This document shows positions 44,205 to 59,497 of a stretch of 64,000 bases of DNA, in pieces. Position 1 is the stretch's first letter. Each line of letters starts with the position of its first letter. Where the stretch lies: positions 522,769 through 586,768 of the forward strand of contig NZ_CP104971.1 in assembly GCF_025452195.1 (NCBI RefSeq). The letters run 5' to 3'. The position numbers were made by a program, and so were the translations under genes. Source of the stretch: Phyllobacterium zundukense. GTDB taxonomy: Bacteria > Pseudomonadota > Alphaproteobacteria > Rhizobiales > Rhizobiaceae. The notes beneath the pieces are model-generated. The model was not told the origin of the DNA and did no database searches. It saw only the letters and a list, made by a program, of their open reading frames with translations.

Positions 44205-47200
44205 TTATTCAGCCGGCGCCGGCGCGTGCGTGCCGCGCAGCCTGCGGCCGATCTTGCTCAAGGCGCGAGACAAATCCTCCATGTAGAGGAAAATAACCGG
44301 TGTGATGAACAGCGTGAGGATCTGGGAGACGACGAGACCACCGACGACCGCCACACCGAGCGGCTGACGAAGCTCCGAGCTTGCTCCTGCACCAATGGCG
44401 ATGGGAATCGTGCCCATGAGAGCAGCGAGGGTCGTCATCATGATTGGCCGGAAACGCACGAGACAGGCTTCGCGAATGGCATCGAACGAGGTTTCACCGG
44501 CGCGTTGTCGAACAAGCGCGAAATCGACCATCATGATGGCATTCTTCTTGACGATGCCGATCAGCATGAGAATGCCGATAATCGCAATGACGCTAAGATC
44601 GTAGCCGAACAGCTCCAGCGTCGCGAGTGCGCCTGCAGCCGCGGCCGGCAGTCCGGTCAGGATGGTAAGCGGATGGACGAAGCTTTCATAAAGGATGCCG
44701 AGTACAATGTAGATCGTCAGTATCGCCGCGCCGACAAGCAAACCCTGATTGGCGAGGGATTGCTGGAACACCTGGGCGGTGCCGGTAAAACTCGACGTGA
44801 TGGTGTCAGGAACACCTAGCTGCGTTTTGAGAGCAGCAAGCTCCTGTACCGCCTGACCAAGTGAGACACCTTGCGGCAGATTGAAGGAGATCGTGACGGC
44901 GGGGAGCTGTCCGAGCTGGCTGACTGCCAGCAGCCCGGTCTTGCGCTCGACGTGGGCGAAGGCTGAAAGCGGTATCAGCTTGCCGGTGGTTGGCGAGCGG
45001 ATCTGCATCTGGTCAAGCTTGTCGGTCGTCCAGGGAATGTCCGGATCGAGTTCGAGAATGACCTGATAGCTATCGGCCGTCGAGAATATAGTCGATGCCT
45101 GATTGGTACCGAAAGCGTAGTAGAACGTATTGCGCAACTGATCGGCATTGATGCCGAGCATTTGCGCCTTGTCCTGATCGATCACCAGATTTGCCTGAAG
45201 TGCATTGTCCTGCAAATTGCTCGACACGTCGACGAAGGTCTGACGTTCCTGCTGCATTGCCAGCAGGATTTTCTGCGACCACGGATAGAGATCGGTCGAA
45301 GAGACACTTTGAAGATTGTATTGATACTGCGCATTGGAGGAGACGCCACCGATACGCAGATTCTGTACGGCGACAGGGTAGCTGGTAATCCCGGGAATCT
45401 TCGACAAGGTCTGGCGCAGATCACGCAGAAGCGGTTCAAGCGCCAGTCGTTCCGACTTTGGTTTCAACTCAACGAACATTCGCCCCTGATTGAGACTGGC
45501 GGAGTTGAAACCGCCACCAACCGTGGATACGACATGCGAAACATATGGCTTGCTTGAAATTGCATCCGCCACCTTTTTCTGCAGCACCACCATGGCATCG
45601 AACGAGATGTCCTGCCGGGCCTCGGTCGAGATCGACAACTGCCCGATATCCTCAGTCGGCAGGAAGCCCTTGTTAATCGTTGAAAAGAGATAACCGGTCG
45701 CAACGACGGTCAGCAGGAATACGCCAAGGACGACGGGGCGTGCGCGCAGGCAAAGATCAAGAACACGGCCGTAATCCGACTGCACCGCATCGAACATGCG
45801 TTCGGTAAGCGGTTTCTTCTTTTCGCCGTCGGTATGTTTTTCGGGAGGCAAATGGCTGCATAGCATCGGCGTCAGCGTGAGGGATATCAGCGCCGAGGCA
45901 ACGATAGCGACTGTCACGACGACGGCGAATTCGTTGAAGATACGCCCGACGACGCCACCCATCAGCAGGATCGGGATGAACACCGCAACCAGCGACGTGG
46001 TGATCGAGATGATCGTAAAGCCGATCTCCTCGCTACCCTTTAGCGCCGCCTCAAGCGGAGCCATGCCATCTTCTATATGACGGGCTATGTTTTCCAGCAT
46101 GACGATCGCATCATCGACGACCAGTCCGACAGACAAGGTCAAGCCGAGCAGAGAGATGTTGTCGATCGAAAACCCGAGCACATACATCGCGCCAAGTGTG
46201 GCGATCAACGAAAGCGGGACAGCCACGATCGGGACCATCGTTGCGCTCACACGGCGCAAGAAGATGAAGATCACCAGGATAACGAGGCCAATCGTCAAGA
46301 GCAGTGTGAATTGCACGTCTGACACCGCCTGCCGGATAGAGGCCGAGCGGTCGTTCAGGATGTGGATGCTTGCCGAAGGTCCAAGGTCCTGCTCGAATTG
46401 CGGGAGGATCGCCTTGACGCGATCCACGACGTCGACGGTGTTGGCGCCCGGCTGGCGAAAAACGCCCAGAACAAGCGATGGCTTGCCATCATATCGGCTC
46501 TCGGTCTGCGTGGTGGCAACGGAATCGATAACACGGGCTACATCACCGAGGCGAACAAGCTTGCCATTCGCTGATTTGACGATGATCTGCCGGAACGTGT
46601 CGGCGTTTTGCGCCTGCGTATCGGCTTCGATCGCCATCTGCTGCGTCGGGCTGGAAATCGTTCCCACGGGGGCGATCGAATTTTTGCTGGCGACAGCAGC
46701 CGTCAGTTCGTCTAGGCCAATGCCGCGTGCGGTCACCGCCTCCGGATCGACCTCGACGCGCACTGCATATTGTTTGGTCCCGAAGACCTGGACTTCTCCA
46801 ACGCCATTGATCGTCGAAAACGCGGGAGACATCACGTTTTCGGCGTAGTCGTCGAGTTTCGACAACTGCATTGTGTCGCTCTGTAGCGCCACGAGGACGA
46901 CGGGCGCATCGGCAGGATTGCTCTTTCGATAGCTCGGGGGAGTCGTCATGTTGGCGGGCAGCTGGCGCAGAGTGCTTGCAATGGCTGCCTGAACGTCGGC
47001 CGCAGCCTGATCGATATCACGGTTCAAATCGAATTCGAGCGTAATATGCGTTGCGCCCTCGGTACTCGTCGAACTGATCGTCGAAATGGCTTGGATAGTT
47101 GAGAACTGCTTGATCAGCGGCGTCGCAACGGCACTCGCCATCGTATCGGGCGCTGCGCCGGGGAGCTGGGCGGAAACCGTTATGATCGGAAAATCGACTT

Positions 47201-47315
47201 CAGGCAGCGCAGCGACCGGAATGAAATTATAAGCAAAAAGGCCCGACGCCGCGAGCGCGATGGAAAGCAGAATGGTTGCAATCGGCCGGCGGATGAAGAC
47301 CGATGAAATATTCAT
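44205..47315 (-). CDS. RND efflux transporter permease (hydrophobe/amphiphile exporter type)
   Basis: The 1036-residue pump has the RND topology: two large periplasmic loops and twelve segments. Proton-relay residues are intact (the aspartate pair in GLVVDDAIVMLENI and the lysine in GIVKKNAIMMVDF). It has the MdtB-like start MNISSVFIRRPIATILL. Together with the adaptor encoded just upstream and a separate outer-membrane TolC it would expel drugs or toxic metabolites. No regulator is adjacent. Confidence 0.96.
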   Translation of the reverse strand: MNISSVFIRRPIATILLSIALAASGLFAYNFIPVAALPEVDFPIITVSAQLPGAAPDTMASAVATPLIKQFSTIQAISTISSTSTEGATHITLEFDLNRDIDQAAADVQAAIASTLRQLPANMTTPPSYRKSNPADAPVVLVALQSDTMQLSKLDDYAENVMSPAFSTINGVGEVQVFGTKQYAVRVEVDPEAVTARGIGLDELTAAVASKNSIAPVGTISSPTQQMAIEADTQAQNADTFRQIIVKSANGKLVRLGDVARVIDSVATTQTESRYDGKPSLVLGVFRQPGANTVDVVDRVKAILPQFEQDLGPSASIHILNDRSASIRQAVSDVQFTLLLTIGLVILVIFIFLRRVSATMVPIVAVPLSLIATLGAMYVLGFSIDNISLLGLTLSVGLVVDDAIVMLENIARHIEDGMAPLEAALKGSEEIGFTIISITTSLVAVFIPILLMGGVVGRIFNEFAVVVTVAIVASALISLTLTPMLCSHLPPEKHTDGEKKKPLTERMFDAVQSDYGRVLDLCLRARPVVLGVFLLTVVATGYLFSTINKGFLPTEDIGQLSISTEARQDISFDAMVVLQKKVADAISSKPYVSHVVSTVGGGFNSASLNQGRMFVELKPKSERLALEPLLRDLRQTLSKIPGITSYPVAVQNLRIGGVSSNAQYQYNLQSVSSTDLYPWSQKILLAMQQERQTFVDVSSNLQDNALQANLVIDQDKAQMLGINADQLRNTFYYAFGTNQASTIFSTADSYQVILELDPDIPWTTDKLDQMQIRSPTTGKLIPLSAFAHVERKTGLLAVSQLGQLPAVTISFNLPQGVSLGQAVQELAALKTQLGVPDTITSSFTGTAQVFQQSLANQGLLVGAAILTIYIVLGILYESFVHPLTILTGLPAAAAGALATLELFGYDLSVIAIIGILMLIGIVKKNAIMMVDFALVRQRAGETSFDAIREACLVRFRPIMMTTLAALMGTIPIAIGAGASSELRQPLGVAVVGGLVVSQILTLFITPVIFLYMEDLSRALSKIGRRLRGTHAPAPAE

Positions 47316-48535
47316 TTAGCGGCCTCTAAGGCTCCGGAAACCGGGCTGTCGATCGACGATGCTATATCTGCCGCCTGCGTGCTCGTCTGGACAGGTGAGC
47401 CGTCTTGCAAGTGAAGCTGGCCGTCGACCACCACCTGATCGCCAGGCGCTACGCCGGAAGCGACAACTGCGGTGTCGCCTACCGTGTCGGTCAGTGTGAT
47501 GTTCTGCTTTGCAACCGTTTTGTTGGAATGAACGAGGAAGACGAACGAGCCGTCATTTCCCTGCTGAATGGCGACAAGCGGCACAGTCGTGGCATTCTTG
47601 TGAACCGTGAGCTCCACTACAGCCCTAACATACTGTCCGGGCCAAAGCGCACCGTCCGTATTGGCGATATCTGCCTTCAAAACCACCGTGCCGGAAGACG
47701 TGTCTACATTCGAATCGATGAAATTCAATGTGCCCGTCGCGATCGTATCGTTGCTGCCTGGAAGTTTGACCTGGACCGGCGTCGGGTGATCCGCCACGGC
47801 TGATCGCAGTGCGGGCAGGTCACGTTCGGCAATGACAAAGGCAACACGCAGCGGCGCCATTTTGGTTATGGTGAGAAGGTCACTCGTATCCGCAGTGCGA
47901 ACAAGGTTGCCGACAGACGTATTGACGACACCGACGCGACCGTCGATTGGCGCCGTGATCGCCATATAAGATAGTTGTACCTGATCAGCAGCAATCTGAG
48001 CCTTGTCCATATTGATCGTCGCTTCGAGCACCTTAACGGCTGCTTCGAACTGATAGACCTGCTGATTGGTATCGACGTTGCGTTTTTGCAGGTCCCTGGC
48101 ACTTGTCAGATCGAGATTTGCAGCAACCAGACTTGCCTGGTCCTTGGCGAGCAATGCTTGATCCTTATCGATCATGGCGCGGATTGCACGATCGTCGAGC
48201 TGAAAAAGCACGTCTCCGGCCTTGACCATTTGACCGTCGGTGACTTCGGTTGCGACGACAACGCCGTCGATCTGTGGCTTGACGGCGACCGTGTCGCTCG
48301 GCTCCATCGTGGCAACGACTGTCTTGGTGACAGGCACATCCTCCGATTTGGCAGATGCAACGACGACGGAGGCCGTTCCTCCCCCTTTATGAGCCTTGCC
48401 GCCAACGGGCGACGTATCGACTGATGCTGCGCTTTGTGAGGGGAAAGATGCGTGCGGGTATAATTGGGGATAGACGACAAAATAGCCAATACCGGCAATG
48501 AGTGCTGCACCTATCAGAAGGCCGATACGCTTCAT
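47312..48535 (-). CDS. RND efflux periplasmic adaptor (membrane fusion protein)
   Basis: The 407-residue protein has an N-terminal signal anchor (KRIGLLIGAALIAGIGYFVV), the lipoyl-like pair around QIDGVVVATEV and APIDGRVGVV, the coiled-coil hairpin (MIDKDQALLAKDQASLVAAN and following) and the beta-barrel domain. ATG 48535 is preferred to upstream codons. Its stop overlaps the pump gene in ATGA, so the two are one operon. Confidence 0.94.
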   Translation of the reverse strand: MKRIGLLIGAALIAGIGYFVVYPQLYPHASFPSQSAASVDTSPVGGKAHKGGGTASVVVASAKSEDVPVTKTVVATMEPSDTVAVKPQIDGVVVATEVTDGQMVKAGDVLFQLDDRAIRAMIDKDQALLAKDQASLVAANLDLTSARDLQKRNVDTNQQVYQFEAAVKVLEATINMDKAQIAADQVQLSYMAITAPIDGRVGVVNTSVGNLVRTADTSDLLTITKMAPLRVAFVIAERDLPALRSAVADHPTPVQVKLPGSNDTIATGTLNFIDSNVDTSSGTVVLKADIANTDGALWPGQYVRAVVELTVHKNATTVPLVAIQQGNDGSFVFLVHSNKTVAKQNITLTDTVGDTAVVASGVAPGDQVVVDGQLHLQDGSPVQTSTQAADIASSIDSPVSGALEAAK

Positions 48536-48592
48536 GACAAATATCTCTTTCGTGGCGGATGCCGTGGGAGCCCGCCATCCCCTAATGCGCAA

Positions 48593-48721: not shown

Positions 48722-48739
48722 TCGTCACACAATTGTTAC
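48722..48739 (+). promoter_or_regulatory. Pho-box-like site upstream of the first ATPase
   Basis: TCGTCAC-ACAA-TTGTTAC: two 7-bp direct half-sites at an 11-bp period, as in PhoB boxes (CTGTCAt-N4-CTGTCAc). It ends 53 bases before the ATG at 48793. Both half-sites deviate from consensus, but spacing and position match the second site at 52739. Confidence 0.55.
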
Positions 48740-48792
48740 GCAAACGCAGCATAGCCGGTGTCAAATTGCAGAAAGAATTGTAAAACCTGCGC

Positions 48793-49827
48793 ATGACCGA
48801 AATCCGCATCCAGAACCTGACAAAACGCTTTGGTGACGTCACCGCGCTCGACGACATCTCGATTGATTTTCCAGCCGGATCGTTCACTTCATTACTCGGC
48901 CCTTCTGGTTGCGGCAAGACCACCTTGCTGCGGCTGATCGCTGGATTTGAGGCCCCGGATGGCGGGCAGCTGTCGTTTGGTGATGAGTTGATCGCCGATG
49001 CCCAAAACCAGAAGAAACCGGAAGAACGCGGTGTCGGCGTCGTCTTCCAGTCTTATGCCCTCTGGCCGCATATGGATGTGGCTGCAAATGTCGCCTATCC
49101 GTTGAAGACGCGAAAGGTGGGCAAGGACGAGATTGCGAGCCGCGTCGCCGCCGTCCTCGACAGTGTGGGCCTCGATGGTTACGCCAAGCGTGGGATCGAG
49201 GAGCTCTCCGGCGGCCAGCGTCAGAGGGTTGCCCTTGCCCGCTGCCTGGTAGCGGACGCAAAGATTATTCTCTTCGATGAGCCACTCGCCAATCTCGACA
49301 TGCATTTGCGGGCTTCGATGGTCGAAGCATTTCGCGAGATCCACCGTCGGACGCGCGCGACGATTGTCTATGTAACGCATGATCAATCCGAAGCGCTCGC
49401 GCTGTCCGACCGTGTAGCGGTCATGAGTTCAGGAAATATTTTGCAGGTCGCGTCCCCCTCGCAAGTCTATCATTCGCCGGCCGACCGAAAGGTGGCAGGA
49501 TTTATCGGGCGCGGGACGCTTGTCTCCGGCACAGTCGTGCACAGGAACGGCCAATCAACCATCGTCAATATCGGGGGCACACACGTCACTGCACGTGGAC
49601 AGGCCAACGGTGCGGATAGCGTTCAGGTTCTGCTGCGTCCTGAAACCATCACCCTTTCCGAGCAAGGTCTCGCTGCTGTCGTTCAGCAACGCACCTATCG
49701 TGGACCGGTGCACGAAACGTGGCTTGAACTTGCCAATGGCGAGCGGCTGACGCTTGACAGCCCGGATCCCCTCCCCCTTGGAAGCAAGGTGCATGTCGGC
49801 GTTAGCGACGCCTGGATCATTCCTTAA
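48793..49827 (+). CDS. ABC transporter ATP-binding protein, Fe3+/phosphonate-type importer
   Basis: The 344-residue ATPase has Walker A GPSGCGKTT, signature LSGGQRQRVALARCL, Walker B IILFDEPLANLD and a C-terminal TOBE-like regulatory part (VQVLLRPETITL). It is of the FbpC/AfuC type. Its convergent neighbours on the other strand are the two-domain permease and binding protein of the same importer class, and the stops abut with no gap. The Pho-box-like site upstream suggests phosphate-starvation control, as for the afu genes of Sinorhizobium. Confidence 0.93.
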   Translation: MTEIRIQNLTKRFGDVTALDDISIDFPAGSFTSLLGPSGCGKTTLLRLIAGFEAPDGGQLSFGDELIADAQNQKKPEERGVGVVFQSYALWPHMDVAANVAYPLKTRKVGKDEIASRVAAVLDSVGLDGYAKRGIEELSGGQRQRVALARCLVADAKIILFDEPLANLDMHLRASMVEAFREIHRRTRATIVYVTHDQSEALALSDRVAVMSSGNILQVASPSQVYHSPADRKVAGFIGRGTLVSGTVVHRNGQSTIVNIGGTHVTARGQANGADSVQVLLRPETITLSEQGLAAVVQQRTYRGPVHETWLELANGERLTLDSPDPLPLGSKVHVGVSDAWIIP

Positions 49828-51579
49828 TCAACGCCATGGTAAGACGCCCGCGGGGAGCTTCCTGCCGAACCGGTCCAGAAGGAGAAGCAATACCACGACG
49901 ATGACAATGGTCGTGACTGCGATTGCCGCCGCCTGGGTGCCGAGCCCCGCCTCCTCAAGGCTGAACAACACAACGCCCAAGGTTTCGTTGCCGCTTGACC
50001 ACAGCAAAGCAGAGACGGTCAGCTCATTGAAAGCGCTCATGAATACCAGAAGCGCGCCCGCGACGGCGGCTGGTGCGACCAGCGGCGCGGTGATCGTCAT
50101 CATCCGACGTAAGGGGTAAGCACCTGACACTGCGGCGGCCTCGTCCAGATCCCGCGAGATTTGGCCGACGGCAGCGGTGACCGGTTTCATGGCGAGAGCA
50201 AAGAAACGCATGAGATAAGCCGCGAGGATGATCCATGGCGTAGCGTAGAGGCTACCGATGAACGGCAGCGGTCGCAGAAACAGAAGAATGCAGGCAATGG
50301 CCAGCACGATGCCCGGCAGCGCATAGGGCAGTTCGATCATCCCATGCAACACGCGTTGTGACAGGCGCGAAAAGCGCTCAAGGCCGATTGCCAAAGGAAT
50401 GGCACCGACGGCGAGGATCAAAGCCGCGCCACCAGCCAAGATTGTGGAATTGCGGAAGGCGCGATTGGTCGAAGCCTGACGAAACAGCACTTCCTCGAAG
50501 TTGGAAAAGGTCAGAGTGCTCCAATTGAGCGGAACACCGAATGACGGAATAAGCGCAGTCGTTACCAAGGCGAGAACAGGGAGGATGAGCATGAATAATA
50601 TAGCGATCCAGCCCAGCAGTGCGAGCGGCAACCGCCAACCTCCTAAAGTGAAACGCGCAGGTGTTCCGGCCGTGTAACGATGACCAGCGCGGCGCAGGGC
50701 CAGCGCCTGCAACGTGACACCGAGTAGCGCCAGGGTGGCAATCAGCACGGAGAGCGCCGCGACTTGCGGCAAAACGCTTGGGCCGAAGCTGGAAATTCGC
50801 TGATAGATCAGCGTTGTCAGCGTCAGATAATTGACCGGCATGCCGAGCAGCGCGGGAATGCCGAAATTGCCGACGCCAGAGACGAAGGCTAGCGCCGTTG
50901 CGGCGACTAGATATGGCCGAACCATCGGCAGGATAATGGTGACGAGCACACGCAGCGGCGAAGAGCCCGATGAACGCGCCGCTTCAACCAGATCCCGCGG
51001 GACGCGCGTGAGCCCTGCACGCAGCGTAATAAAGATGATCGGCGCGTGTTGAATGGCGTAAAGCAGGATAATGCCCTTGCGGCCGAGCAGAGGATTGGCG
51101 GTGCCCGGAAGGGGCGAGAGATTGAATGCTCCGAGCAAGGTGCTCGATGGTCCGAACAGATGCAGCCAGGACAGCGCCATGACTTGCGGTGCGATCATCA
51201 ACGGCAGCAGCAATAAAAAACCCAGTGTCCGCCGCCCCGGCAAATCGGTCATCGATAGCGCAACGGCAAAGGGCGCACCGATCACGAGTGCCAGTAACGC
51301 GCCGAAGAAGGACGTGTCGAGCGTATTGAACGTTGCGCGGATGCCCGCCGGGCTTGCAAGACGGTTTGCGAAAGCGGCCAAATCAACTTCGCCGCCGGGC
51401 GCAAGGGCCGTCGACACGAGGCGCAGCACGGGAACCAGGCTCAGGAGAAAAATGACGACCAGAACGGCCAGGCCAGAAAGCCACGTATCGTACCGAAGTT
51501 TTCGCCACAGGATCGGGAGAAAGCCCGCGTCGTGTGACGCGGGTCGTTCATTCGGGCGAATAGATTGGGAAACAGCCAA
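49828..51579 (-). CDS. ABC transporter permease with two fused transmembrane domains (FbpB/AfuB type)
   Basis: The 583-residue protein contains two BPD_transp_1 domains, each with an EAA loop (LVEAARSSGSSPLRVLVTII and LDEAAAVSGAYPLRRMMTIT). Single-chain double permeases are typical of ferric-iron and 2-aminoethylphosphonate importers. No ATG precedes the first domain; translation probably starts at TTG 51579, six bases after the binding-protein stop, preceded by TAAGG. Confidence 0.93.
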   Translation of the reverse strand: MAVSQSIRPNERPASHDAGFLPILWRKLRYDTWLSGLAVLVVIFLLSLVPVLRLVSTALAPGGEVDLAAFANRLASPAGIRATFNTLDTSFFGALLALVIGAPFAVALSMTDLPGRRTLGFLLLLPLMIAPQVMALSWLHLFGPSSTLLGAFNLSPLPGTANPLLGRKGIILLYAIQHAPIIFITLRAGLTRVPRDLVEAARSSGSSPLRVLVTIILPMVRPYLVAATALAFVSGVGNFGIPALLGMPVNYLTLTTLIYQRISSFGPSVLPQVAALSVLIATLALLGVTLQALALRRAGHRYTAGTPARFTLGGWRLPLALLGWIAILFMLILPVLALVTTALIPSFGVPLNWSTLTFSNFEEVLFRQASTNRAFRNSTILAGGAALILAVGAIPLAIGLERFSRLSQRVLHGMIELPYALPGIVLAIACILLFLRPLPFIGSLYATPWIILAAYLMRFFALAMKPVTAAVGQISRDLDEAAAVSGAYPLRRMMTITAPLVAPAAVAGALLVFMSAFNELTVSALLWSSGNETLGVVLFSLEEAGLGTQAAAIAVTTIVIVVVLLLLLDRFGRKLPAGVLPWR

Positions 51580-51585
51580 AGAGCC

Positions 51586-52560
51586 TTACTGCCCCATGAC
51601 TTCGCTGAATTTTTCTTTGTTCGCCGTGTCGTTCGCCAACGCGCCGGCTGCGTCGAACGCCAGCACCTTGATGGCAGAACGATCCGGATAGCCTGCCGGA
51701 AGGCCGGCATCGGGACGCGCAGGGATATAGCCCATGCCGACCGCAAGCTTCTGTCCTTCTTCAGACAAAAGGAAGTTGACGAAGGCCTTTGCTGCCTCAG
51801 GGTTCTTCGCGGTTGAGAGAATCGCGACCGGTTCGGTTACGGCCGAGACACCTTCCTTTGGGAATACGAACTCGACTGGCGCGCCCTTGGCCTTTTCGCG
51901 GATTGGCATGTAATCGACGATCATGCCGAAAAGTTTGTCGCCACCGCTGACAGCCTTGAGAACATCGCCATTGCCGCCGGCCGCCTGCGCACCATTCTTG
52001 GCGAGCTCGCCATAGAAATCCCAGCCTTGCGGCAGGTTTTCGGTCAACGTCACGGTATGGATCATCGCGGCGCCCGATGTCAGCGGGCTCGGCAAACTGA
52101 CCAGATTCTTGGCCTCGGGCTTGGTGAGGTCGCTCCAGCTCGCGGGAACGAAAGGCGCCTTCGTGTTGTAGACGATGCCAGTCGTGATGAGTTTGGTGGA
52201 GAAATAGGTTCCGTCCTTGTCCATCAGCGCCGGGTCGATGCCGTCAGTATTGGCATCCTTGAAGGCGAGCAGACGGCCCTCTTTCTTCAAACCTTCCATT
52301 GTCACAACATCTGAAATCAAAAGAACATCGGGTTGGGGATTGCCCGCTTCGATCTCGGCCCGCAGCTTGGCCATGACCTTAGGCGTTCCGTCACGAACCC
52401 ATTCGACCTTGATGCCGGGGTTCTTTGCCATAAAGGCATCCGTCGTCTTTTGTGCGTCGGTGTTGGGCTGACTTGTATAGAGAACGAGTTTACCATCAGC
52501 GGCGAAGGCTGGATGAAGTCCGGCGGCCAGTAGAACTGCAGCGGCGAGAAGTTGGCGCAC
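51586..52560 (-). CDS. ABC transporter periplasmic binding protein (FbpA/AfuA type)
   Basis: The 324-residue protein has a signal peptide (LLAAAVLLAAGLHPAFAADG) and a two-domain iron/solute-binding fold: KLVLYTSQPNTDAQKTTDAF, VEWVRDGTPKVMAKL, GNPQPDVLLISD. GTG 52560 is preferred because AAGGGA lies seven bases upstream; an extended frame starts at TTG 52587. The ligand may be ferric iron or an organophosphorus compound. A Pho-box-like site on this strand lies about 90 bases upstream. Confidence 0.92.
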   Translation of the reverse strand: MRQLLAAAVLLAAGLHPAFAADGKLVLYTSQPNTDAQKTTDAFMAKNPGIKVEWVRDGTPKVMAKLRAEIEAGNPQPDVLLISDVVTMEGLKKEGRLLAFKDANTDGIDPALMDKDGTYFSTKLITTGIVYNTKAPFVPASWSDLTKPEAKNLVSLPSPLTSGAAMIHTVTLTENLPQGWDFYGELAKNGAQAAGGNGDVLKAVSGGDKLFGMIVDYMPIREKAKGAPVEFVFPKEGVSAVTEPVAILSTAKNPEAAKAFVNFLLSEEGQKLAVGMGYIPARPDAGLPAGYPDRSAIKVLAFDAAGALANDTANKEKFSEVMGQ

Positions 52561-52652
52561 GATGATTCCCTTTATCAAACGAGACAAGCCCGCGTCTTTC
52601 TATGCGGGCACAAACGGATTGGCCACCCTTATACAAGCCGGTTAACGGTTCT

Positions 52653-52670
52653 ATGACACTTATACGAAAG
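52653..52670 (-). promoter_or_regulatory. Pho-box-like site for the leftward binding-protein operon
   Basis: On the minus strand this reads CTTTCGT-ATAA-GTGTCAT, two half-sites at an 11-bp period with 5/7 and 6/7 matches to CTGTCAT and an AT-rich spacer. It is one of two such sites in the 251-bp divergent gap. Confidence 0.55.
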
Positions 52671-52738
52671 TCGCACTTTGCCTGTCGAGTACCATCGAAA
52701 TGGCGAAAATGTACAATTGCAGCTTCAATATTTTTCGC

Positions 52739-52756
52739 TTGTCACGTGGCTGTTAC
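52739..52756 (+). promoter_or_regulatory. Pho-box-like site for the rightward phosphodiester importer operon
   Basis: TTGTCAC-GTGG-CTGTTAC: half-sites 6/7 and 6/7 to CTGTCAC with 11-bp period, 55 bases upstream of ATG 52812. Confidence 0.6.
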
Positions 52757-52811
52757 GAACAGAAAGTACAAGAAAAAATGCACAGCTGCGCAACAAGGGT
52801 GGAACTGAAAT

Positions 52812-53915
52812 ATGCGGCCATTTCTCTCGGTCGAGAAGATGAGCGTTGGCTACGGCACAACGACCGTTCTCGATAAGCTTGACCTCGGTATTCATAAGGG
52901 CGAATTTGTCGCTTTGCTGGGCTCGTCGGGCTGCGGAAAAACCACATTGTTGCGCACGATCGCGGGATTTGCCAAGCCATTTTCTGGGTCTATCCAGGTG
53001 GCGGATCGCGATGTCACGCAAATGCGGCCGGACAAACGCGGCATGGCGCTGGTTTTCCAGTCCTATGCTCTCTGGCCGCACATGACTGTTGCCCAGAACA
53101 TCGGCTATGGGCTGAAGTTGCAGAGGCAGTCGCGTGAAAGTATCGCCGCGCGGGTCAACGACATGCAGAATCTGCTTGGCCTTGCGGGACTTGGCGATCG
53201 TAAACCTGGACAGCTTTCCGGCGGACAGCGGCAGCGCGTCGCGCTCGGCCGGGCGTTGGCGATCGATCCGGAAATCCTGCTGCTTGATGAGCCACTTTCC
53301 AATCTCGATGCGCGCATTCGCCTGACGGTGCGCCACGAGATTCGGTCCCTGCAGAAGCGGCTCGGTATCACTGCGATCCATGTCACCCACGACCGCGAAG
53401 AAGCGATGGTGATGGCAGACCGCATCGTCATCATGAATGCAGGCCATATTGAACAGGAGGGGTCACCGGAAGACGTTTACAACAAACCCGCCTCCCCTTT
53501 CGTGGCAGCGTTCATGGGGGCTGAGAATCTTTTGTCGATGCAGGCGCGTGTCCATGGCGACCAGGTCGAACTCATGGAAGGTTCGTTCAACCCGTCGACC
53601 ATCACAGCACGTGCCGGGCGAACATTGGCAACCGGCCCGGTTGAACTGCGGTTCCGTGCCGAGGCCGCACGACTTGCAAGTCCTTCAGATAGGACGGCGC
53701 TGGAACCGGGCGCGCTGGAGCTACGCGGCCAGGTTACAAGCGTCAGCTATCCGGGTGGGCATTGGCGTCACGCGATCAGGCTGGGTGAGAACGAGATCCT
53801 TGTCGATGCTGATACGCCCTTCAATCAGGGCGAGACGGTAAGAGTGTGCATTCCAGCCAAGTCGCTTTTTATCTTCAACGTTGTCGAAGGCGCGGCTGAG
53901 GCACGCGCGCATTAA
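52812..53915 (+). CDS. ABC transporter ATP-binding protein (PotA/PhnT type)
   Basis: The 367-residue ATPase has Walker A GSSGCGKTT, signature LSGGQRQRVALGRAL, Walker B ILLLDEPLSNLDARI and a C-terminal TOBE_2 domain ending VRVCIPAKSLFIFNV. It heads a rightward operon with its binding protein, two permeases, a LacI regulator and a phosphodiesterase. Its nearest relatives by layout are 2-aminoethylphosphonate, spermidine and glycerophosphodiester importers; the adjoining enzyme favours a phosphodiester. Confidence 0.93.
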   Translation: MRPFLSVEKMSVGYGTTTVLDKLDLGIHKGEFVALLGSSGCGKTTLLRTIAGFAKPFSGSIQVADRDVTQMRPDKRGMALVFQSYALWPHMTVAQNIGYGLKLQRQSRESIAARVNDMQNLLGLAGLGDRKPGQLSGGQRQRVALGRALAIDPEILLLDEPLSNLDARIRLTVRHEIRSLQKRLGITAIHVTHDREEAMVMADRIVIMNAGHIEQEGSPEDVYNKPASPFVAAFMGAENLLSMQARVHGDQVELMEGSFNPSTITARAGRTLATGPVELRFRAEAARLASPSDRTALEPGALELRGQVTSVSYPGGHWRHAIRLGENEILVDADTPFNQGETVRVCIPAKSLFIFNVVEGAAEARAH

Positions 53916-53988
53916 CACAAATTGGATGCCGCGGACCTGGCCGCCAAACAACACTGCTACCTTTCACTTTTCTCAATGGAGATAACAA

Positions 53989-55122
53989 ATGAAAACACTT
54001 CTAGTCTCTCTTATCCTCGGACTGGCGGGGACTCCCGCTGCAGCTGGCGATCTCACGGTTTTGACAGCTGGTGATCAGAACATGGTCGACTACATCAACG
54101 ACTATCTCGGCCCTCTCTTCGAGAAGGAAAATCCGGGGACGACGGTTCGCGTCGTTGGCACAGGCCCAGGGGACGCCGGATCGCAGAAGATCGTCGAGCG
54201 GTTCGATGCACAGGCAAAGGCCAATGTCGACAAATGGGACGCTGACGTCGCCGTTGTGCATGAGAAATTCGCCGGGCCGTTGGTCAAGAACGGTTATCTT
54301 GAATCGTATCGCTCGAAGATACCTTCCGGAGAGATGGTCACCAGCGAAAAGGCAAAGATGGCGCTCGGCGCAAATGTCGATGGTTATGTCATGCCGATGT
54401 TTTCAAGCCAGACAGCGATTGCATATAACCCGGCGCTGATTTCCAATCCACCCAAGAGCTACGAAGAGCTTGTTACTTGGGCCAAACAGAATCCGAAGCA
54501 GTTCGGCTATAATGGCATCAAGGGTGGAGCGTCAGGGGTCAGTTTCGTCATGGGCTGGATCTATGCCTTCGGCGACGGCGACGCCAACAAACTGATGAAT
54601 GGTCCATTCGAGGAAGCCGAGACCAAAAAATGGGACAAGGCTTTCGCCAGTTTGAAGGATTTCACAACCAACGCCACCCTTACCCCCGGCAATGCTGGCA
54701 CATTGGATATGCTCAGCCGCGGCGAAATTGCCATGGGGCCGGTCTGGGTCGACATGTTCTATTCGTGGCAGGCGGATGGCAAATTGCCACCCGAAATGAA
54801 GTTGTTCCTGCCCGCGCCGGGTATGCCAGGACAACCGATGCATTATGTCATTCCGTCCAAGAGCCCGAACACCGAACTGGCAGAAAAATTCGTTGCGCTT
54901 GCGACAAGCCCGAAAGTCCAGGCCGATGGTATCGTCAAGCGATTCAACTGGTACCCCGGGATCGATGCGAAATTCGTGCAGCCCGAACTGGACAAAGCCA
55001 GCTGGGACAAGCTCTTCGTCGATATTTCCCCGGACGATCTCGCAACCAAAGCCAAGCCTTTCCCGATCGCACCATATAACTCGGCGATCCTCGAGGCTTA
55101 TGAAAAGAACGTAGCCAACTAA
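53989..55122 (+). CDS. ABC transporter substrate-binding protein of the PotD/family-1 type
   Basis: The 377-residue protein has a signal peptide (SLILGLAGTPAAAGDL) and begins its mature part LTVLTAGDQNMVDYINDYLG, a layout shared by spermidine/phosphonate-binding proteins. FSSQTAIAYNPALISNPPKS and PMHYVIPSKSPNTELAEKF are typical. It follows its ATPase after 73 bases. The ligand is not deducible; a phosphodiester is inferred from the operon. Confidence 0.93.
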   Translation: MKTLLVSLILGLAGTPAAAGDLTVLTAGDQNMVDYINDYLGPLFEKENPGTTVRVVGTGPGDAGSQKIVERFDAQAKANVDKWDADVAVVHEKFAGPLVKNGYLESYRSKIPSGEMVTSEKAKMALGANVDGYVMPMFSSQTAIAYNPALISNPPKSYEELVTWAKQNPKQFGYNGIKGGASGVSFVMGWIYAFGDGDANKLMNGPFEEAETKKWDKAFASLKDFTTNATLTPGNAGTLDMLSRGEIAMGPVWVDMFYSWQADGKLPPEMKLFLPAPGMPGQPMHYVIPSKSPNTELAEKFVALATSPKVQADGIVKRFNWYPGIDAKFVQPELDKASWDKLFVDISPDDLATKAKPFPIAPYNSAILEAYEKNVAN

Positions 55123-55152
55123 TATCTTCTATTGGGCCGTTGACATTTGTCG

Positions 55153-56004
55153 ATGGCCCCCTCCCCTCTCCGGAACTTTTTGATGCAGACGCGCCTTCTC
55201 GCACTCCTCCTTGTTCTTCCGGCACTGATCATGATCGTGCTGTTTTTCATCGTGCCGCTGTTTGCGTCGATCCTCGGTGCATTCGAGGTCGGCGACAGTT
55301 TTGGCCTCGGCAATTTCAGCAAATCGTTCGATCTCTATTCGAGGGACATGATCTTCACCGTGGTCATCGTCTCCATTTCGACCGCGCTCATCGGACTTTT
55401 GTCTATCGCGATTGGCGGATATCTTACCCTTGGCGAGAATCCGCGTTCCGTTGCCATCCTGCGCTGGCTTTATCGCTGGCCGATGTTCATTCCTTTTATC
55501 GTTGTCGGTCAGGTCTTGCGCACCTTTCTTGCCAAAAACGGGCTGATGAACAACATCCTTGTCAGTCTTGGAATATTGACACCTTTGCAGACGACAGGGT
55601 TTCTCGACTGGCGCGGTATTGTGATTGCTTTCGTCTGGAAGCAGACGCCGTTCGTGACGCTGCTTGTTGCCGGAGCTATGGCATCGCTCGATCGCAGTAC
55701 GATAGAAGCCGCACGCAATCTTGGCGCTTCGCGCCTGCGTATTCTCATCGAGATTGTCGTGCCGCAGATCTCCGGCACGTTGCTCGTCGGTTTGATCCTT
55801 TCCTTCGTCACCATGATGTCTGTGCTGTCCGTCCCGCTGATGATCAACGCCCAGTCGCCAACGATGCTGACCGCCGATATCGCTTTTCGGATCAATGCCC
55901 ATGGTGATTACGGCGTCGCCAACGCACTCGGCATGATTTCTTTGCTTTTGACGGCTGGTGTGGCACTGATATATCTGCGTCAGACAATGAAGGATCGCTT
56001 ATGA
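55153..56004 (+). CDS. ABC transporter permease (PotB type)
   Basis: The 283-residue membrane protein has six segments and the EAA motif IEAARNLGASRLRILIEIV. It has ATG 55153 or an upstream TTG at 55147. It pairs with the following permease. Confidence 0.92.
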   Translation: MAPSPLRNFLMQTRLLALLLVLPALIMIVLFFIVPLFASILGAFEVGDSFGLGNFSKSFDLYSRDMIFTVVIVSISTALIGLLSIAIGGYLTLGENPRSVAILRWLYRWPMFIPFIVVGQVLRTFLAKNGLMNNILVSLGILTPLQTTGFLDWRGIVIAFVWKQTPFVTLLVAGAMASLDRSTIEAARNLGASRLRILIEIVVPQISGTLLVGLILSFVTMMSVLSVPLMINAQSPTMLTADIAFRINAHGDYGVANALGMISLLLTAGVALIYLRQTMKDRL

Positions 56005-56813
56005 CGGCTCAAATCGATCTCTGGTGGCTGCCGCGGGCCTTCATTCTTGGGCTCCTCGCCTTCATCATTTTCGGGCCACTGACCAATCTGCTTTTGTGGA
56101 CAGTAGCGGAGAAATGGTATTTCCCGCATATGTTGCCATTGGAATACGGATTCACTTTCTGGCAGAGGGTATTCTCGCCGCGTGGGAATGCGATGGCGTC
56201 ATTGATGACGAGCATCGTCGTCGCGACGCTCACCGTTGTGGCGTCGCTAGTCTTGGCAATTCCCGCAGGCTATGCTCTATCGCGGCTGAAACTTCCGTTT
56301 CGCGGTTTGATCCTTCTCGCATTCCTTATCCCTCAGGCTTTCCCCAACCTTCCGGTTTACGTAAACATAGCTCGGTTTTTTTACGAGATCGGCCTTAACG
56401 GAACCATCGCCGGTGTCGTCATAGTGCACGTGACACATGGTCTGGTTTACGCGGTATGGATTGCTACGGCGGCATTTTCAGCAGTGGATATCGATCTCGA
56501 AGAAGCGGCGCGTTCAATTGGTGCCGGGCCGTTTCGCGCGTTTCGCGATGTCACGCTTCCCCTTGCCGCTCCCGGTCTCATGGCCAGTGCTATCTTCGTT
56601 TTCCTGGAGTCGCTCGACGAATTTACCGGCAGCTATTTTGTCGGCGCGCCCGTCGTGAATACACTGCCCCTATTGCTATACACTGCGGGTTCAGGCGGAA
56701 ATTATCAGATTGCGTCAATCACCGCTCTGCTGTTACTCGTACCTTCGATTGGCTTCATGCTGGTGGTGGAGCGATTCTTGCGGGCAGACGTGCTTTCCAA
56801 GGTCGGACATTGA
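56001..56813 (+). CDS. ABC transporter permease (PotC type)
   Basis: The 270-residue membrane protein has the EAA motif LEEAARSIGAGPFRAFRDVT and six segments. Its ATG overlaps the PotB-type stop (ATGA at 56001-56004). Together the two permeases give the heterodimer that the single ATPase gene serves. Confidence 0.92.
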   Translation: MTAQIDLWWLPRAFILGLLAFIIFGPLTNLLLWTVAEKWYFPHMLPLEYGFTFWQRVFSPRGNAMASLMTSIVVATLTVVASLVLAIPAGYALSRLKLPFRGLILLAFLIPQAFPNLPVYVNIARFFYEIGLNGTIAGVVIVHVTHGLVYAVWIATAAFSAVDIDLEEAARSIGAGPFRAFRDVTLPLAAPGLMASAIFVFLESLDEFTGSYFVGAPVVNTLPLLLYTAGSGGNYQIASITALLLLVPSIGFMLVVERFLRADVLSKVGH

Positions 56814-56817
56814 AAAC

Positions 56818-57867
56818 ATGAAATCTAAAAACAAGCACGCTTCCAATGACGACAAGCAGTACGTCAGTGCGCTGCAGGTCGCGAAACACGCGGGTGTATC
56901 CCGCTCGGCGGTGTCGAGGGCCTTTACACCAGGAGCAAGCGTTTCGGCCAAAAAACGCGAGAAGATCATGGAGGCCGCGGAAGCGCTTGGCTATCAGGTC
57001 AACGATCTAGCGCGTGGTCTTCTGGCTCGAAGGAGCCGGCTCGTGGGTTTGGTCGTCACCAATCCCGAACTCGGCTATCGCTCACATCTGGTTGCAGCGC
57101 TGACCAAGGCGCTCATTCACCGGGGTAGTGTTCCCATAGTGATCAACACCGGCCGCACCGAAGAAGAACTCGTTGCGGCACAAAAGACGCTTTTTGGTTA
57201 TCGCGCAGAAGCGACCATTATCCTCTCCGGTTCACCGCCCTCGTCTTTCGTTGATCTAGCCCGCCGCAATGGCCAGCCATTGATCGTTCTTGGCCGCTCG
57301 GAAACGGGAGCAGATGATGTCAATATCGACAATGAAGGCGCCGGCCGCGAGGCGGCCCGGTTTTTTCTCGCCGATGGCACAAAGAAGTTGGGCTTTGCCG
57401 GTGCGCTGCCGGGCACACCCACGACGATCGAACGCGAGTACGGGTTCCGGCTGGAAGCGGAGCTCCATGGTGCTACTGTCCTGACCGGAAATGGTAAGAA
57501 TTCGGACTATGCGGGCGGGCAGGAAGCCGCTCAGCAGCTTTTCGCTGTTGAAAGCGACCGCCCTGATGCCGTGTTCTGCGCCAATGATCTTGTGGCATTT
57601 GGCTTGATTGATTATGTGCGGAAACACACAAAACTTTCGATCCCGGAAGATCTTTCCATTGTCGGATTCGATGATATTCCGGAGGCGTCATGGGATGCCT
57701 ACAATCTCACGACCTTTCAGCAGGACGCGAGCACTATGGCGGCGCATGCAGTGGCACTTCTCGATCGCCGCCAGGCGGAACCTGACCGCCCGCCTGCTCA
57801 TGAACGCTTGAATACACGTCTTATCCTGCGCGGCAGCGCGCGTATTCCCGGGTCGTACAAATCCTAG
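56818..57867 (+). CDS. LacI family regulator in the phosphodiesterase operon
   Basis: The 349-residue protein has a LacI DNA-binding domain (VSALQVAKHAGVSRSAVSRA, hinge-like LARGLLARRSRLVGLVV) and the sensor domain (GFAGALPGTPTTIEREYGF, DAVFCANDLVAFGLIDYV). ATG 56818 lies four bases after the permease stop. A LacI regulator inside a Pho-box operon suggests a second, substrate-linked control on top of phosphate. Confidence 0.92.
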   Translation: MKSKNKHASNDDKQYVSALQVAKHAGVSRSAVSRAFTPGASVSAKKREKIMEAAEALGYQVNDLARGLLARRSRLVGLVVTNPELGYRSHLVAALTKALIHRGSVPIVINTGRTEEELVAAQKTLFGYRAEATIILSGSPPSSFVDLARRNGQPLIVLGRSETGADDVNIDNEGAGREAARFFLADGTKKLGFAGALPGTPTTIEREYGFRLEAELHGATVLTGNGKNSDYAGGQEAAQQLFAVESDRPDAVFCANDLVAFGLIDYVRKHTKLSIPEDLSIVGFDDIPEASWDAYNLTTFQQDASTMAAHAVALLDRRQAEPDRPPAHERLNTRLILRGSARIPGSYKS

Positions 57868-57889
57868 AAAAACTCCTGGAACTTCCTGC

Positions 57890-58663
57890 ATGAAAATTAT
57901 CCAAGTGACTGATCTGCATCTGGTGAAGCCGGGCGCAACCCTGTGTGGCCTTGATCCCCTGGCGCGTTTGCAGGCGTGCATCACCGACATCAACCAAAAT
58001 CACGGCGATGCCGAACTGGTAATCTTTACCGGCGATCTGAGTGACACTGGTGAGGAGATTACCTATCGGGTTCTGGCGGATGAACTCATGAAATTGCGCC
58101 CGCCTTTCCGTCTGATGCTCGGCAATCATGACGATCGCAATGCTTTTCTTAACGTCTTTGACGCCGTCCGTGCCGAGGAAGGCTTCGTCCAGAGTGTGGA
58201 AGACACCCGCGAAGGCAGGCTGATCATGCTGGATACGCAGGTTCCTGGGCGGCCAGAAGGTCGTCTGGATGAAACGCGATTGCGCTGGCTGCAGCAGCGC
58301 CTTATGGAGGCCAGGGGCCGTCCGGTGTTTCTGTTCTCACACCACCCGCCCTTTCCTATTTACATGCCGCTTTTGGACCGCATGGGCATCGTCGAAGCGG
58401 ATGCGCTCCACCCGCTCCTGAAGGAATATGGCAATGTCCGGCATATTTTTGCCGGCCATGCACACCGGCCGATCGCGGGGAGTTGGCGGGGCATTCCTGT
58501 CAGCGTCCTGCGCGGCACCAACCATCAGTCGGCACTGGATTTTTCGCCGGATAGAATTGCGGTTACGCACGAGCCGCCAGCCTATGCCGTGATTTTTATC
58601 GATGAGGAGAGCGTGGTTGCGCACTTTCACGATTTTCTTGATCGAACGGCGGCGTATCGCTGA
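57890..58663 (+). CDS. Calcineurin-like phosphodiesterase (GpdQ/CpdA type)
   Basis: The 257-residue enzyme has the ordered two-metal motifs: VTDLHLVKPG, TGDLSDTGEE, LGNHDDR, FLFSHHPPF and FAGHAHRPI. This set matches the cytoplasmic glycerophosphodiesterase/cAMP-phosphodiesterase family (GpdQ, RpdE). Encoded last in the importer operon, it probably releases phosphate monoester or alcohol from the imported phosphodiester. Confidence 0.92.
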   Translation: MKIIQVTDLHLVKPGATLCGLDPLARLQACITDINQNHGDAELVIFTGDLSDTGEEITYRVLADELMKLRPPFRLMLGNHDDRNAFLNVFDAVRAEEGFVQSVEDTREGRLIMLDTQVPGRPEGRLDETRLRWLQQRLMEARGRPVFLFSHHPPFPIYMPLLDRMGIVEADALHPLLKEYGNVRHIFAGHAHRPIAGSWRGIPVSVLRGTNHQSALDFSPDRIAVTHEPPAYAVIFIDEESVVAHFHDFLDRTAAYR

Positions 58664-58682: not shown

Positions 58683-59153
58683 TTAATCGCGCGGCTTAGC
58701 CTTGTCGCTTTGATAGGCGCGGATGTGTTCTGAGGGAACGACGGAATACGTTTTGCGATAGAGCTTGGAAAACCGGCCGGGATTCGAAAAGTGGAGCTTG
58801 GCCGCCAGTTCCCTCACGGATGTTGCTTTCCCGCTGTAAATGATTTCATGGGCTGCAGCAATGCGGCTATTGAGAAGGACCTGGATCGGCGTGGCACCGC
58901 GGTATTTGCGAAACAGGCGCTGCAAGGCGCGGATATTGACGCCCGCGGCATTTGCGATGTCTGAAATGCTGACGAAATTGCAAATGTTATTTCGGATGAA
59001 CTCTTCGGCCAGAGCCAATTGCTGCAGGGGGTCGCGCGAAAATCCTGGCCTGTTGTTGAGCGTATATTGGACAGGGATCGTGTTCGCGCGCGCACTCGAT
59101 TCTTCGGCGCTGGGGATTCTCTGTCTGAAACTGTGAGCCGTATCATCTGCCAT
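58683..59153 (-). CDS. Short AraC-type DNA-binding protein
   Basis: The 156-residue protein consists almost only of the AraC HTH pair: ISDIANAAGVNIRALQRLFR and VRELAAKLHFSNPGRFSKLY. A ligand-sensing domain, usual in 280-residue AraC regulators, is missing. The frame is open to 59399, but that stretch (59154-59399) does not look like protein; ATG 59153 is preferred. Possibly a remnant of a larger regulator, or a stand-alone SoxS-like one. It is convergent with the phosphodiesterase gene. Confidence 0.8.
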   Translation of the reverse strand: MADDTAHSFRQRIPSAEESSARANTIPVQYTLNNRPGFSRDPLQQLALAEEFIRNNICNFVSISDIANAAGVNIRALQRLFRKYRGATPIQVLLNSRIAAAHEIIYSGKATSVRELAAKLHFSNPGRFSKLYRKTYSVVPSEHIRAYQSDKAKPRD

Positions 59154-59311
59154 TGTGAAATACCTGATCGAGTGTTGAAGATCCAAACCGGGGTAGAATA
59201 CAATCTGGCGTAGAAGAATTGTAGGCGTAAAACGTAGGATTGCATAACTTAATACGTCAGAGTCAAGGATTTGAAAATTGAACCTTAGTGTTATGTCCGC
59301 AAGCAAGCGGT

Positions 59312-59327
59312 GTTGACAGCTGTCAAC
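59312..59327. promoter_or_regulatory. Perfect 16-bp palindrome, operator candidate 1
   Basis: GTTGACAGCTGTCAAC is perfectly self-complementary. It is one of two copies 67 bp apart between divergent genes, the spacing and symmetry expected of a dimeric regulator binding twice. Confidence 0.55.
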
Positions 59328-59378
59328 CCAGCAGTTGGGCTCACCAAGAGGCAAGCCCGCTGTTTCTTTTGGAGACGC

Positions 59379-59394
59379 GTTGACAGCTGGCAAC
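59379..59394. promoter_or_regulatory. 16-bp palindrome with one mismatch, operator candidate 2
   Basis: GTTGACAGCTGGCAAC differs from the copy at 59312-59327 at one base. It lies nearer the transpeptidase gene. Confidence 0.55.
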
Positions 59395-59497
59395 GACATC
59401 TCTCAGAAGGTTAAGACGCTTCTATTTAATTCATCGTTTGTAAACCACATTTCCATACAGTTTGAACGATTGCCAATATTTGTAAGCGAGTACGAAA

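Follow-up and report, generated by a model that had tools for sequence, protein, structure and literature searches.

A likely PhoB-controlled organophosphate-scavenging island with two ABC importers in Phyllobacterium zundukense

Organization of the locus

Here, we describe a 64-kb stretch of DNA from Phyllobacterium zundukense (hereafter, the window), which forms part of a 587-kb contig in a 6.4-Mb genome and carries two neighboring ATP-binding cassette (ABC) importers, a LacI-family regulator, a phosphodiesterase (PDE), and three sequences that resemble Pho boxes. An earlier reading of the sequence alone (the original prediction) had taken these three sites as signs of a phosphate-starvation island. 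Comparison with related genomes confirms that observation in part and supports its regulatory side well, and the locus is likely a PhoB-controlled organophosphate-scavenging island with an organophosphate or phosphodiester importer.

Importer 1 comprises a solute-binding protein (SBP1), a fused double permease (PERM1), and a convergently encoded ATPase (ATP1). Importer 2 is encoded by operon 2 (52812–58663), whose genes all run in one direction in the order ATP2-SBP2-PERM2a-PERM2b-LacI-PDE, with gaps of 73, 24, −4, 1, and 22 bp when the LacI gene is started at the codon that we chose. The coordinates of these genes and of the candidate promoter elements are collected in Table 1.

Table 1. Genes and candidate regulatory elements of the two importers (positions within the window)
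Feature	Position	Strand	Description
Pho box 1	48722–48739	+	TCGTCAC-ACAA-TTGTTAC; candidate promoter of ATP1; 53 bases before ATG 48793; matrix rank 1
−10-like hexamer CATAGC, weak	48750–48755	+	10 bp past Pho box 1; 3/6 TATAAT matches, best of nine spacings
ATP1	48793–49827	+	Importer 1; ABC ATPase, FbpC/PotA/PhnT2-like; convergent to PERM1
PERM1	49828–51579	−	Importer 1; fused double permease
SBP1	51586–52587	−	Importer 1; AfuA/PhnS2-like solute-binding protein; start may be GTG 52560
−10-like hexamer TATAAG	52628–52633	−	8 bp past Pho box 2; 5/6 matches; coordinates counted by hand; TATA conserved
Pho box 2, corrected register	52642–52659	−	GTGTCAT-AGAA-CCGTTAA; candidate promoter of SBP1-PERM1; matrix rank 3
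Pho box 3	52739–52756	+	TTGTCAC-GTGG-CTGTTAC; candidate operon 2 promoter; 55 bases before ATG 52812; matrix rank 2
−10-like hexamer TACAAG	52767–52772	+	10 bp past Pho box 3; 4/6 matches; mostly conserved
Palindrome ATGCACAGCTGCGCAA, 16 bp	52778–52793	+	Between −10 and ATP2 start codon; candidate operator of operon 2's LacI
ATP2	52812–53915	+	Importer 2; ABC ATPase
SBP2	53989–55122	+	Importer 2; solute-binding protein, YnjB/SBP_bac_8-like
PERM2a	55147–56004	+	Importer 2; permease
PERM2b	56001–56813	+	Importer 2; permease
LacI-family regulator	56815–57867	+	Start codon chosen by us (TTG 56710 in the list of open reading frames); LacI HTH (PF00356) and periplasmic-binding-like domain (PF13377) over cut-off
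PDE	57890–58663	+	Class III metallophosphoesterase, GpdQ/SpdA-like; Pfam PF00149; DLH, GDLSD, GNHD, HHP, GHAH

Pho boxes and their conservation among relatives

Each of the three boxes is a pair of 7-bp half-sites resembling CTGTCAT, spaced at an 11-bp period, and lies upstream of a gene, which for the second site holds in a corrected register only. The original prediction had given boxes 1 and 3 the positions, strand, and start-codon distances listed in Table 1, and these stand; it had placed the second site at 52653–52670 on the minus strand, where a real Pho box was read 11 bp out of register. The first half-site of that register (CTTTCGT, in CTTTCGT-ATAA-GTGTCAT) varies among 12 Phyllobacterium loci, whereas the next period, GTGTCAT-AGAA-CCGTTAT (first base A or G, with minor changes), is constant in all 12 and has a TATA-type −10 element after it, so the latter is the conserved box 2. 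A Pho-box matrix scores the corrected register at 13.3 in the window and the earlier one at 9.5 (rank 9); across the window and 12 relatives, the scores range from 13.3 to 17.2 and from −9.2 to 10.3, respectively. Downstream of box 1, CATAG is conserved across the Phyllobacterium loci (CATAA in locus L033).

The matrix was trained on ten other Pho genes and on no site from this locus, drawing on pstS, phnG, and phoX across the genus and on seven single sites from the genome itself. It is a rough one that was started from a rhizobial consensus, and some of its training sites may be wrong because those of the pstS, PhoX, and phnG groups were each locus's best match on either strand. A box was called at a locus when the sense strand reached p < 0.02 against shuffles, with the antisense strand serving as the control; several loci sit right at this threshold for the SBP1, ATP1, and operon-2 promoters.

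The SBP1 promoter was compared in 80 loci (the best 80 of 99), including 12 from Phyllobacterium, with SBP1 identities of 84–97%, and 68 others. A sense-strand box was found in 71 of them (12/12 in Phyllobacterium and 59/68 elsewhere). The antisense control yielded one match among the 68, and its matches in 11 of the 12 Phyllobacterium loci are to be expected, as the divergent box 3 shares the same stretch. At the ATP1 promoter, 11 of the 12 Phyllobacterium loci carry the box on the sense strand and none on the antisense strand, and the box forms a conserved footprint within flanks that cannot be aligned between subgroups.

Of 151 genomes from the same GTDB family, 16 have SBP2, as do 36 of 397 from the order, and 48 operon-2 loci were drawn from these matches: 14 of the 16 at family level (the window and genome G149 being excluded) and 34 of the 36 at order level (less the window and G047, both counted already). 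Among these loci, which are not phylogenetically independent, a sense-strand box precedes ATP2 in 32, versus an antisense match in two, suggesting that PhoB control is operon 2's own and not taken over from importer 1. The SBP1 gene is absent from 47 of the 48 loci within the 10–14 kb fetched, the scope to which all statements on absent partners in this sample apply. Thus, conservation in orthologous promoters, named in the original prediction as a check, is found for SBP1, for operon 2, and, within Phyllobacterium, for ATP1.

Operon 2 adjoins importer 1 in all 12 Phyllobacterium loci of the SBP1 sample. A convergent SBP1 and PERM1 pair also adjoins operon 2 at L349:6164-8969 (in a genome from a different family, f27), the sole such case in the 48 loci, and either a separate origin or retention could account for that pairing.

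Across the whole genome, the pattern YGTYAY-N5-YGTYAY has 44 matches, compared to 20 for the reversed control, and two of the 44 are sites 1 and 3. Intergenic matches precede two pstS-type genes (at 52 and 53 bp), PhoX (71 bp), phnG (63 bp), and genes encoding a DUF3419/BtaA-like protein (49 bp), a GNAT/OlsB-like protein (47 bp), a phytase-like protein (59 bp), a type I (NPP-type) phosphodiesterase (55 bp), a PhnC-like ABC ATPase (37 bp), and a Na/Pi cotransporter (140 bp); the remaining matches fall within open frames or lack a recognized Pho gene nearby downstream. Pfam matches for these genes include PBP_like_2, DUF3419, Acetyltransf_5, and ABC_tran, and the names pstS, BtaA, OlsB, and PhnC are those that we presume for them. 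At both pstS genes, the box belongs to the TGTTAT type. Two PhoB proteins of this genome exceed the curated cut-off, and this, the conserved boxes, and the equal box and distance at pstS and other Pho genes support the assignment of the locus to the PhoB regulon.

Several further features of these genomes were recorded. The window's contig also carries, outside the window, a second pst cluster that includes one of the PhoB genes over the cut-off (G000:C3:171000-178721). A Pho-box match at G000:C2:457750-457766 stands 189 bp before the gene of a 433-residue SBP_bac_8 protein, possibly a further Pho-regulated importer. In genome G158 of the same genus, PhnG is matched six times across four contigs, which may reflect contamination (listed at 4%) or the presence of several C-P lyase clusters.

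The direct repeats could instead be bound by another regulator of the OmpR family, which we consider very unlikely. Such a regulator would be in keeping with second half-sites that read TGTTAC instead of TGTCAT, and with 53 matches to the PhoB model in the genome (some partial), two of which exceed the cut-off. However, a second half-site of the form TGTTAY also precedes both pstS genes, PhoX, the BtaA-like gene, and the Na/Pi cotransporter.

A candidate LacI operator in the operon 2 promoter

The palindrome that lies just upstream of ATP2, a likely LacI operator, was missed by the original prediction. Its position and the LacI gene within the operon suggest that it is probably the operator of operon 2's own LacI-family regulator. 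Of 61 promoters, 45 come within two mismatches of the operator consensus TTGCACAGCTGTGCAA, 38 of those 45 having it 10–30 bp before the start codon, and 50 reach p < 0.02 against shuffles; the window's copy is the sole exact match to the 14-bp core TGCRCAGCTGYGCA in 6.4 Mb, with 12 further sites at one mismatch (reversed control, 4 sites per strand at ≤1 mismatch), but both the consensus and the 14-bp pattern were picked by eye from these promoters, which makes the p values and the uniqueness partly post hoc and counts against leaning on them. More distant loci carry other palindromes near this place, namely TTGCACACGCGTGCAA in L347 and ATGAACACGTGTTCAT in L350.

Partner enzymes of importer 2

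Among the 48 operon-2 loci, the fetched stretch encodes a metallophosphoesterase in 18, a 2H-family cyclic phosphodiesterase (CPDase) in 13, neither in 17, and both in none. All 18 metallophosphoesterase genes lie downstream and co-directional, and their products are homologous to the window's PDE, those of L346, L348, and L351 only distantly (79–90 bits). The class III metal motifs DxH, GDxxD, GNHD, and GHxH are all present in the PDE, and 14 of the 18 homologues passed a strict four-motif test. Nine of the 13 CPDase genes are co-directional with the operon and four are divergent and upstream (L338 and L340–L342); the two HxT/S motifs are kept in every one, and all eight that were scanned matched Pfam CPDase or 2_5_RNA_ligase2. 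When 30 operon-2 genomes were searched with PF07823, 19 had no match and 11 had a single one, which in every case lies at operon 2 (nine inside it and two divergently beside it); in G235 and G271, a CPDase missed by PF07823 at the search threshold was found with a custom profile.

Enzymes of the 2H family are known for opening cyclic phosphodiesters, not open-chain glycerophosphodiesters. Since two unrelated diesterases swap in one role, their shared activity, the opening of cyclic phosphodiesters, is suggested to be what the operon needs, and the swap points to a (cyclic) phosphodiester as the ligand. We regard a cyclic phosphodiester as quite possible for importer 2, though somewhat short of an even chance. 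More tentative is the fuller proposal that operon 2 encodes a dedicated cyclic-phosphodiester importer, probably for 2',3'-cyclic nucleotides from RNA decay, that is gated by PhoB and LacI and served, across Hyphomicrobiales, by either of two unrelated cytoplasmic cyclic phosphodiesterases. An alternative of the same tentative standing leaves the regulatory part as it is and assigns importer 2 a non-cyclic ligand, such as glycerophosphodiesters or glycerophosphoinositol, as in the Ugp system, with diesterases of broad specificity; the presence of 2H CPDase-type enzymes, known for acting on cyclic phosphodiesters, in or beside 13 of the 48 operons argues against it.

The Ugp system (ugpBAEC with the cytoplasmic UgpQ) is a PhoB-regulated ABC importer that takes up an intact phosphodiester, which is then hydrolyzed inside the cell, and the arrangement proposed for operon 2 would be alike in both respects. 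Operon 2 differs from it in the family of its diesterase, in a binding protein that is not identified as UgpB, in an ATPase that scores 340.2 bits against a UgpC (NF008653) cut-off of 432, and in having its own LacI regulator and candidate operator. The predicted model of SBP2 is weak (predicted local distance difference test, pLDDT, 68), and binders of polyamines, sugars, and dinucleotides, as well as UgpB, were matched at tied Z. The best NCBIfam model for the PDE is SpdA, an S. meliloti enzyme described as a phosphodiesterase of 2',3'-cyclic nucleotides (PMC4222275), but the PDE falls under the equivalog cut-off and the SpdA gene stands at the cyaD1/clr locus. No published description of operon 2 was found in the titles and abstract openings of the papers listed, a search that left most subscription journals uncovered and so is no proof of absence.

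An IMPase-family gene adjoins operon 2 in 11 of the 48 loci (Pfam scans covered five of them). In eight, it stands between the LacI and metallophosphoesterase genes; the other three are CPDase loci, where it immediately precedes ATP2; a twelfth, in L347, lies convergently downstream. These genes are closest to the HisN and inositol monophosphatase models yet below their cut-offs, so the monoester cannot be named from them. Near its operon-2 copy, L347 also encodes a glycerophosphodiester-phosphodiesterase-like protein (L347:8022-8831), accompanied by a second ABC ATPase and a regulator of the LacI type. Downstream of operon 2 in the window, at 58683–59399 (−), is the gene of a protein with an AraC-type C-terminal helix-turn-helix domain that, at only 238 residues, and being matched just partially in some relatives and not at all in others, is possibly decaying.

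Importer 1 and its ligand

PERM1 follows SBP1 in all 80 loci of the SBP1 sample, and an ATP1 homologue comes next in 78 (locus L067 is cut short and L075 has none). The ATPase gene is co-directional with SBP1-PERM1 in Rhizobium and Agrobacterium, and convergent in Phyllobacterium, Mesorhizobium, Devosia, and others; because of this orientation, the Phyllobacterium ATP1 needs a promoter of its own.

Among the best 120 database matches, SBP1 is labeled as an iron protein, 'iron(III)'. Its closest solved sequences are AfuA and VcA0625 (glucose-6-phosphate), as well as P5PA (pyridoxal phosphate). A fold search returned MctA, AfuA, and FbpA at Z values so nearly tied that no ligand can be called from them, and the likeness to FbpA is one of fold only. 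The sugar-contacting residues H205, D206, and E229 of AfuA are described as a family motif (PMC4546632); the residues aligned to them in SBP1 are V224, D225, and V250, so that two of the three are not conserved. The phosphate-contacting residues S37, S148, G149, and T150 align with T68, S171, G172, and A173, and these four and V224 are invariant across the 30 sequences aligned. Importer 1 thus resembles the hexose-phosphate importer AfuABC (PMC4546632) and P5PAB (PMC8427247), its nearest solved sequences, in the partly kept phosphate end and in a history of mislabeling as iron transport, but it differs from AfuABC in the replacement of H205 and E229 by V224 and V250. With these two changes, the ligand is probably not glucose-6-phosphate and not necessarily a sugar phosphate, and hexose phosphate is disfavored. 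The AfuA/FbpA-type label of the original prediction should therefore not be taken to imply hexose-phosphate specificity. The best fit to SBP1 is a phosphorylated ligand that has another head group.

Importers of 2-aminoethylphosphonate (the PhnSTUV and PhnS2T2U2 models) belong to the superfamily common to importers 1 and 2. The best NCBIfam matches are PhnS2 (TIGR03261) for SBP1, at 139.9 bits against a curated cut-off of 392.75, PhnU2 for PERM1, and PhnT2 for ATP2, all far under the equivalog cut-offs. As all PhnS2, PhnT2, and PhnU2 scores are below the cut-offs, 2-aminoethylphosphonate was rejected as a ligand.

An improbable alternative takes the annotation at its word, with importer 1 acting on ferric iron or an iron complex and being co-regulated by PhoB through linked phosphate-iron chemistry. 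The SMc04316/SMc04317 operon of S. meliloti, which is predicted to serve iron transport, carries a Pho box, and belongs to the highly induced core phosphate-stress genes (PMC8829014), resembles importer 1 in its iron label and Pho box, the two being compared by description only. Phyllobacterium differs in having operon 2 alongside and a convergent ATPase gene that carries a Pho box of its own. The name 'afu' was not found in the main text of that paper. Importer 1 probably imports a small organophosphate other than the ligand of importer 2, and not iron.

Two observations concern the surroundings of importer 1. In four of 14 loci viewed (L076, L078, L094, and L107), an endonuclease/exonuclease/phosphatase-like gene lies downstream of SBP1-PERM1-ATP1, for example L094:9330-10439 in the Rhizobium-type loci, and is a possible clue to the ligand. 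In the window, genes for RND-type-efflux-like and membrane-fusion-like proteins adjoin ATP1 at 44205–48592 (−), and Pho box 1 falls in the same intergenic stretch as the region where they start.

Weighing the evidence

The matrix places the three boxes first, second, and third (14.2, 13.3, and 13.3) among approximately 128,000 strand positions of the window, the fourth-ranked match (12.1) falling inside the SBP2 gene, and four matches score at least 12 versus 1.2 expected. Several findings nevertheless weigh against the PhoB-controlled scavenging island. In 60 Markov-simulated windows, the mean maximum score was 13.6 and the 95th percentile 18.1, so that the boxes, although ranked at the top, score at background by the measure that the original prediction itself proposed. 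Window-wide matrix significance was accordingly rejected as evidence, and the case for the boxes rests on their position (before a start codon, on the right strand) and conservation, not on score. Outside Phyllobacterium, the ATP1 box is significant in only eight of 32 convergent loci (antisense, one), with no Mesorhizobium locus of that set carrying one. No box reaches the threshold in 16 of the 48 operon-2 loci (L287–L289, L324, L335–L337, L339–L341, L343–L345, L347, L349, and L350), and the antisense control reaches it in two. Genome G063 of the same genus has operon 2 and its Pho box but no close SBP1 adjoining, which shows that the two importers are not always linked, even within the genus. 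As for the proposal that the imported ligand is what the phosphodiesterase cleaves, two unrelated diesterase families accompany importer 2 and favor it, but 17 of the 48 loci have neither in the fetched stretch, and the score of the PDE against the SpdA model NF050112 (244.4 bits, below the curated cut-off of 400) means that its substrate cannot be named from sequence.

A proposed route from diester to phosphate

The elements described above can be joined into a working scheme. In each of the three promoters, a −10-like hexamer, weak in part of the cases, lies 8–10 bp downstream of the Pho box, an arrangement in which phosphorylated PhoB would take the place of the −35 element when phosphate is short, driving SBP1-PERM1, the convergent ATP1, and operon 2. 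At operon 2, the LacI-family regulator would most likely occupy the palindrome until its own ligand arrives, so that the promoter may act as an AND gate requiring both low phosphate and the presence of the ligand. Judging from the gene partners, importer 2 would take up an unbroken phosphodiester, for which a cyclic compound such as a 2',3'-cyclic nucleotide is the most likely candidate; the cytoplasmic diesterase would open this diester to a monoester, and a monophosphatase, the IMPase-family enzyme that adjoins the operon in some relatives, would free the phosphate. Importer, diesterase, and monophosphatase together would constitute a complete diester-to-phosphate route.

Significance

Organic diesters are a source of phosphorus in soil. 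Besides 'iron(III)', the importers of this study bear the names 'spermidine/putrescine', 'maltose-binding', and 'uncharacterized YnjBCD' among the best 120 database matches; if the PhoB-controlled reading is true, importers so labeled in soil- and plant-associated Hyphomicrobiales would be phosphorus scavengers. Operon 2 looks like an uncharacterized phosphodiester importer, possibly for RNA breakdown products, and would offer a testable candidate uptake route for cyclic or other phosphodiesters. With a candidate PhoB box and a candidate LacI operator in one promoter, it could serve as a compact model of an organophosphate importer gated by both need and supply.

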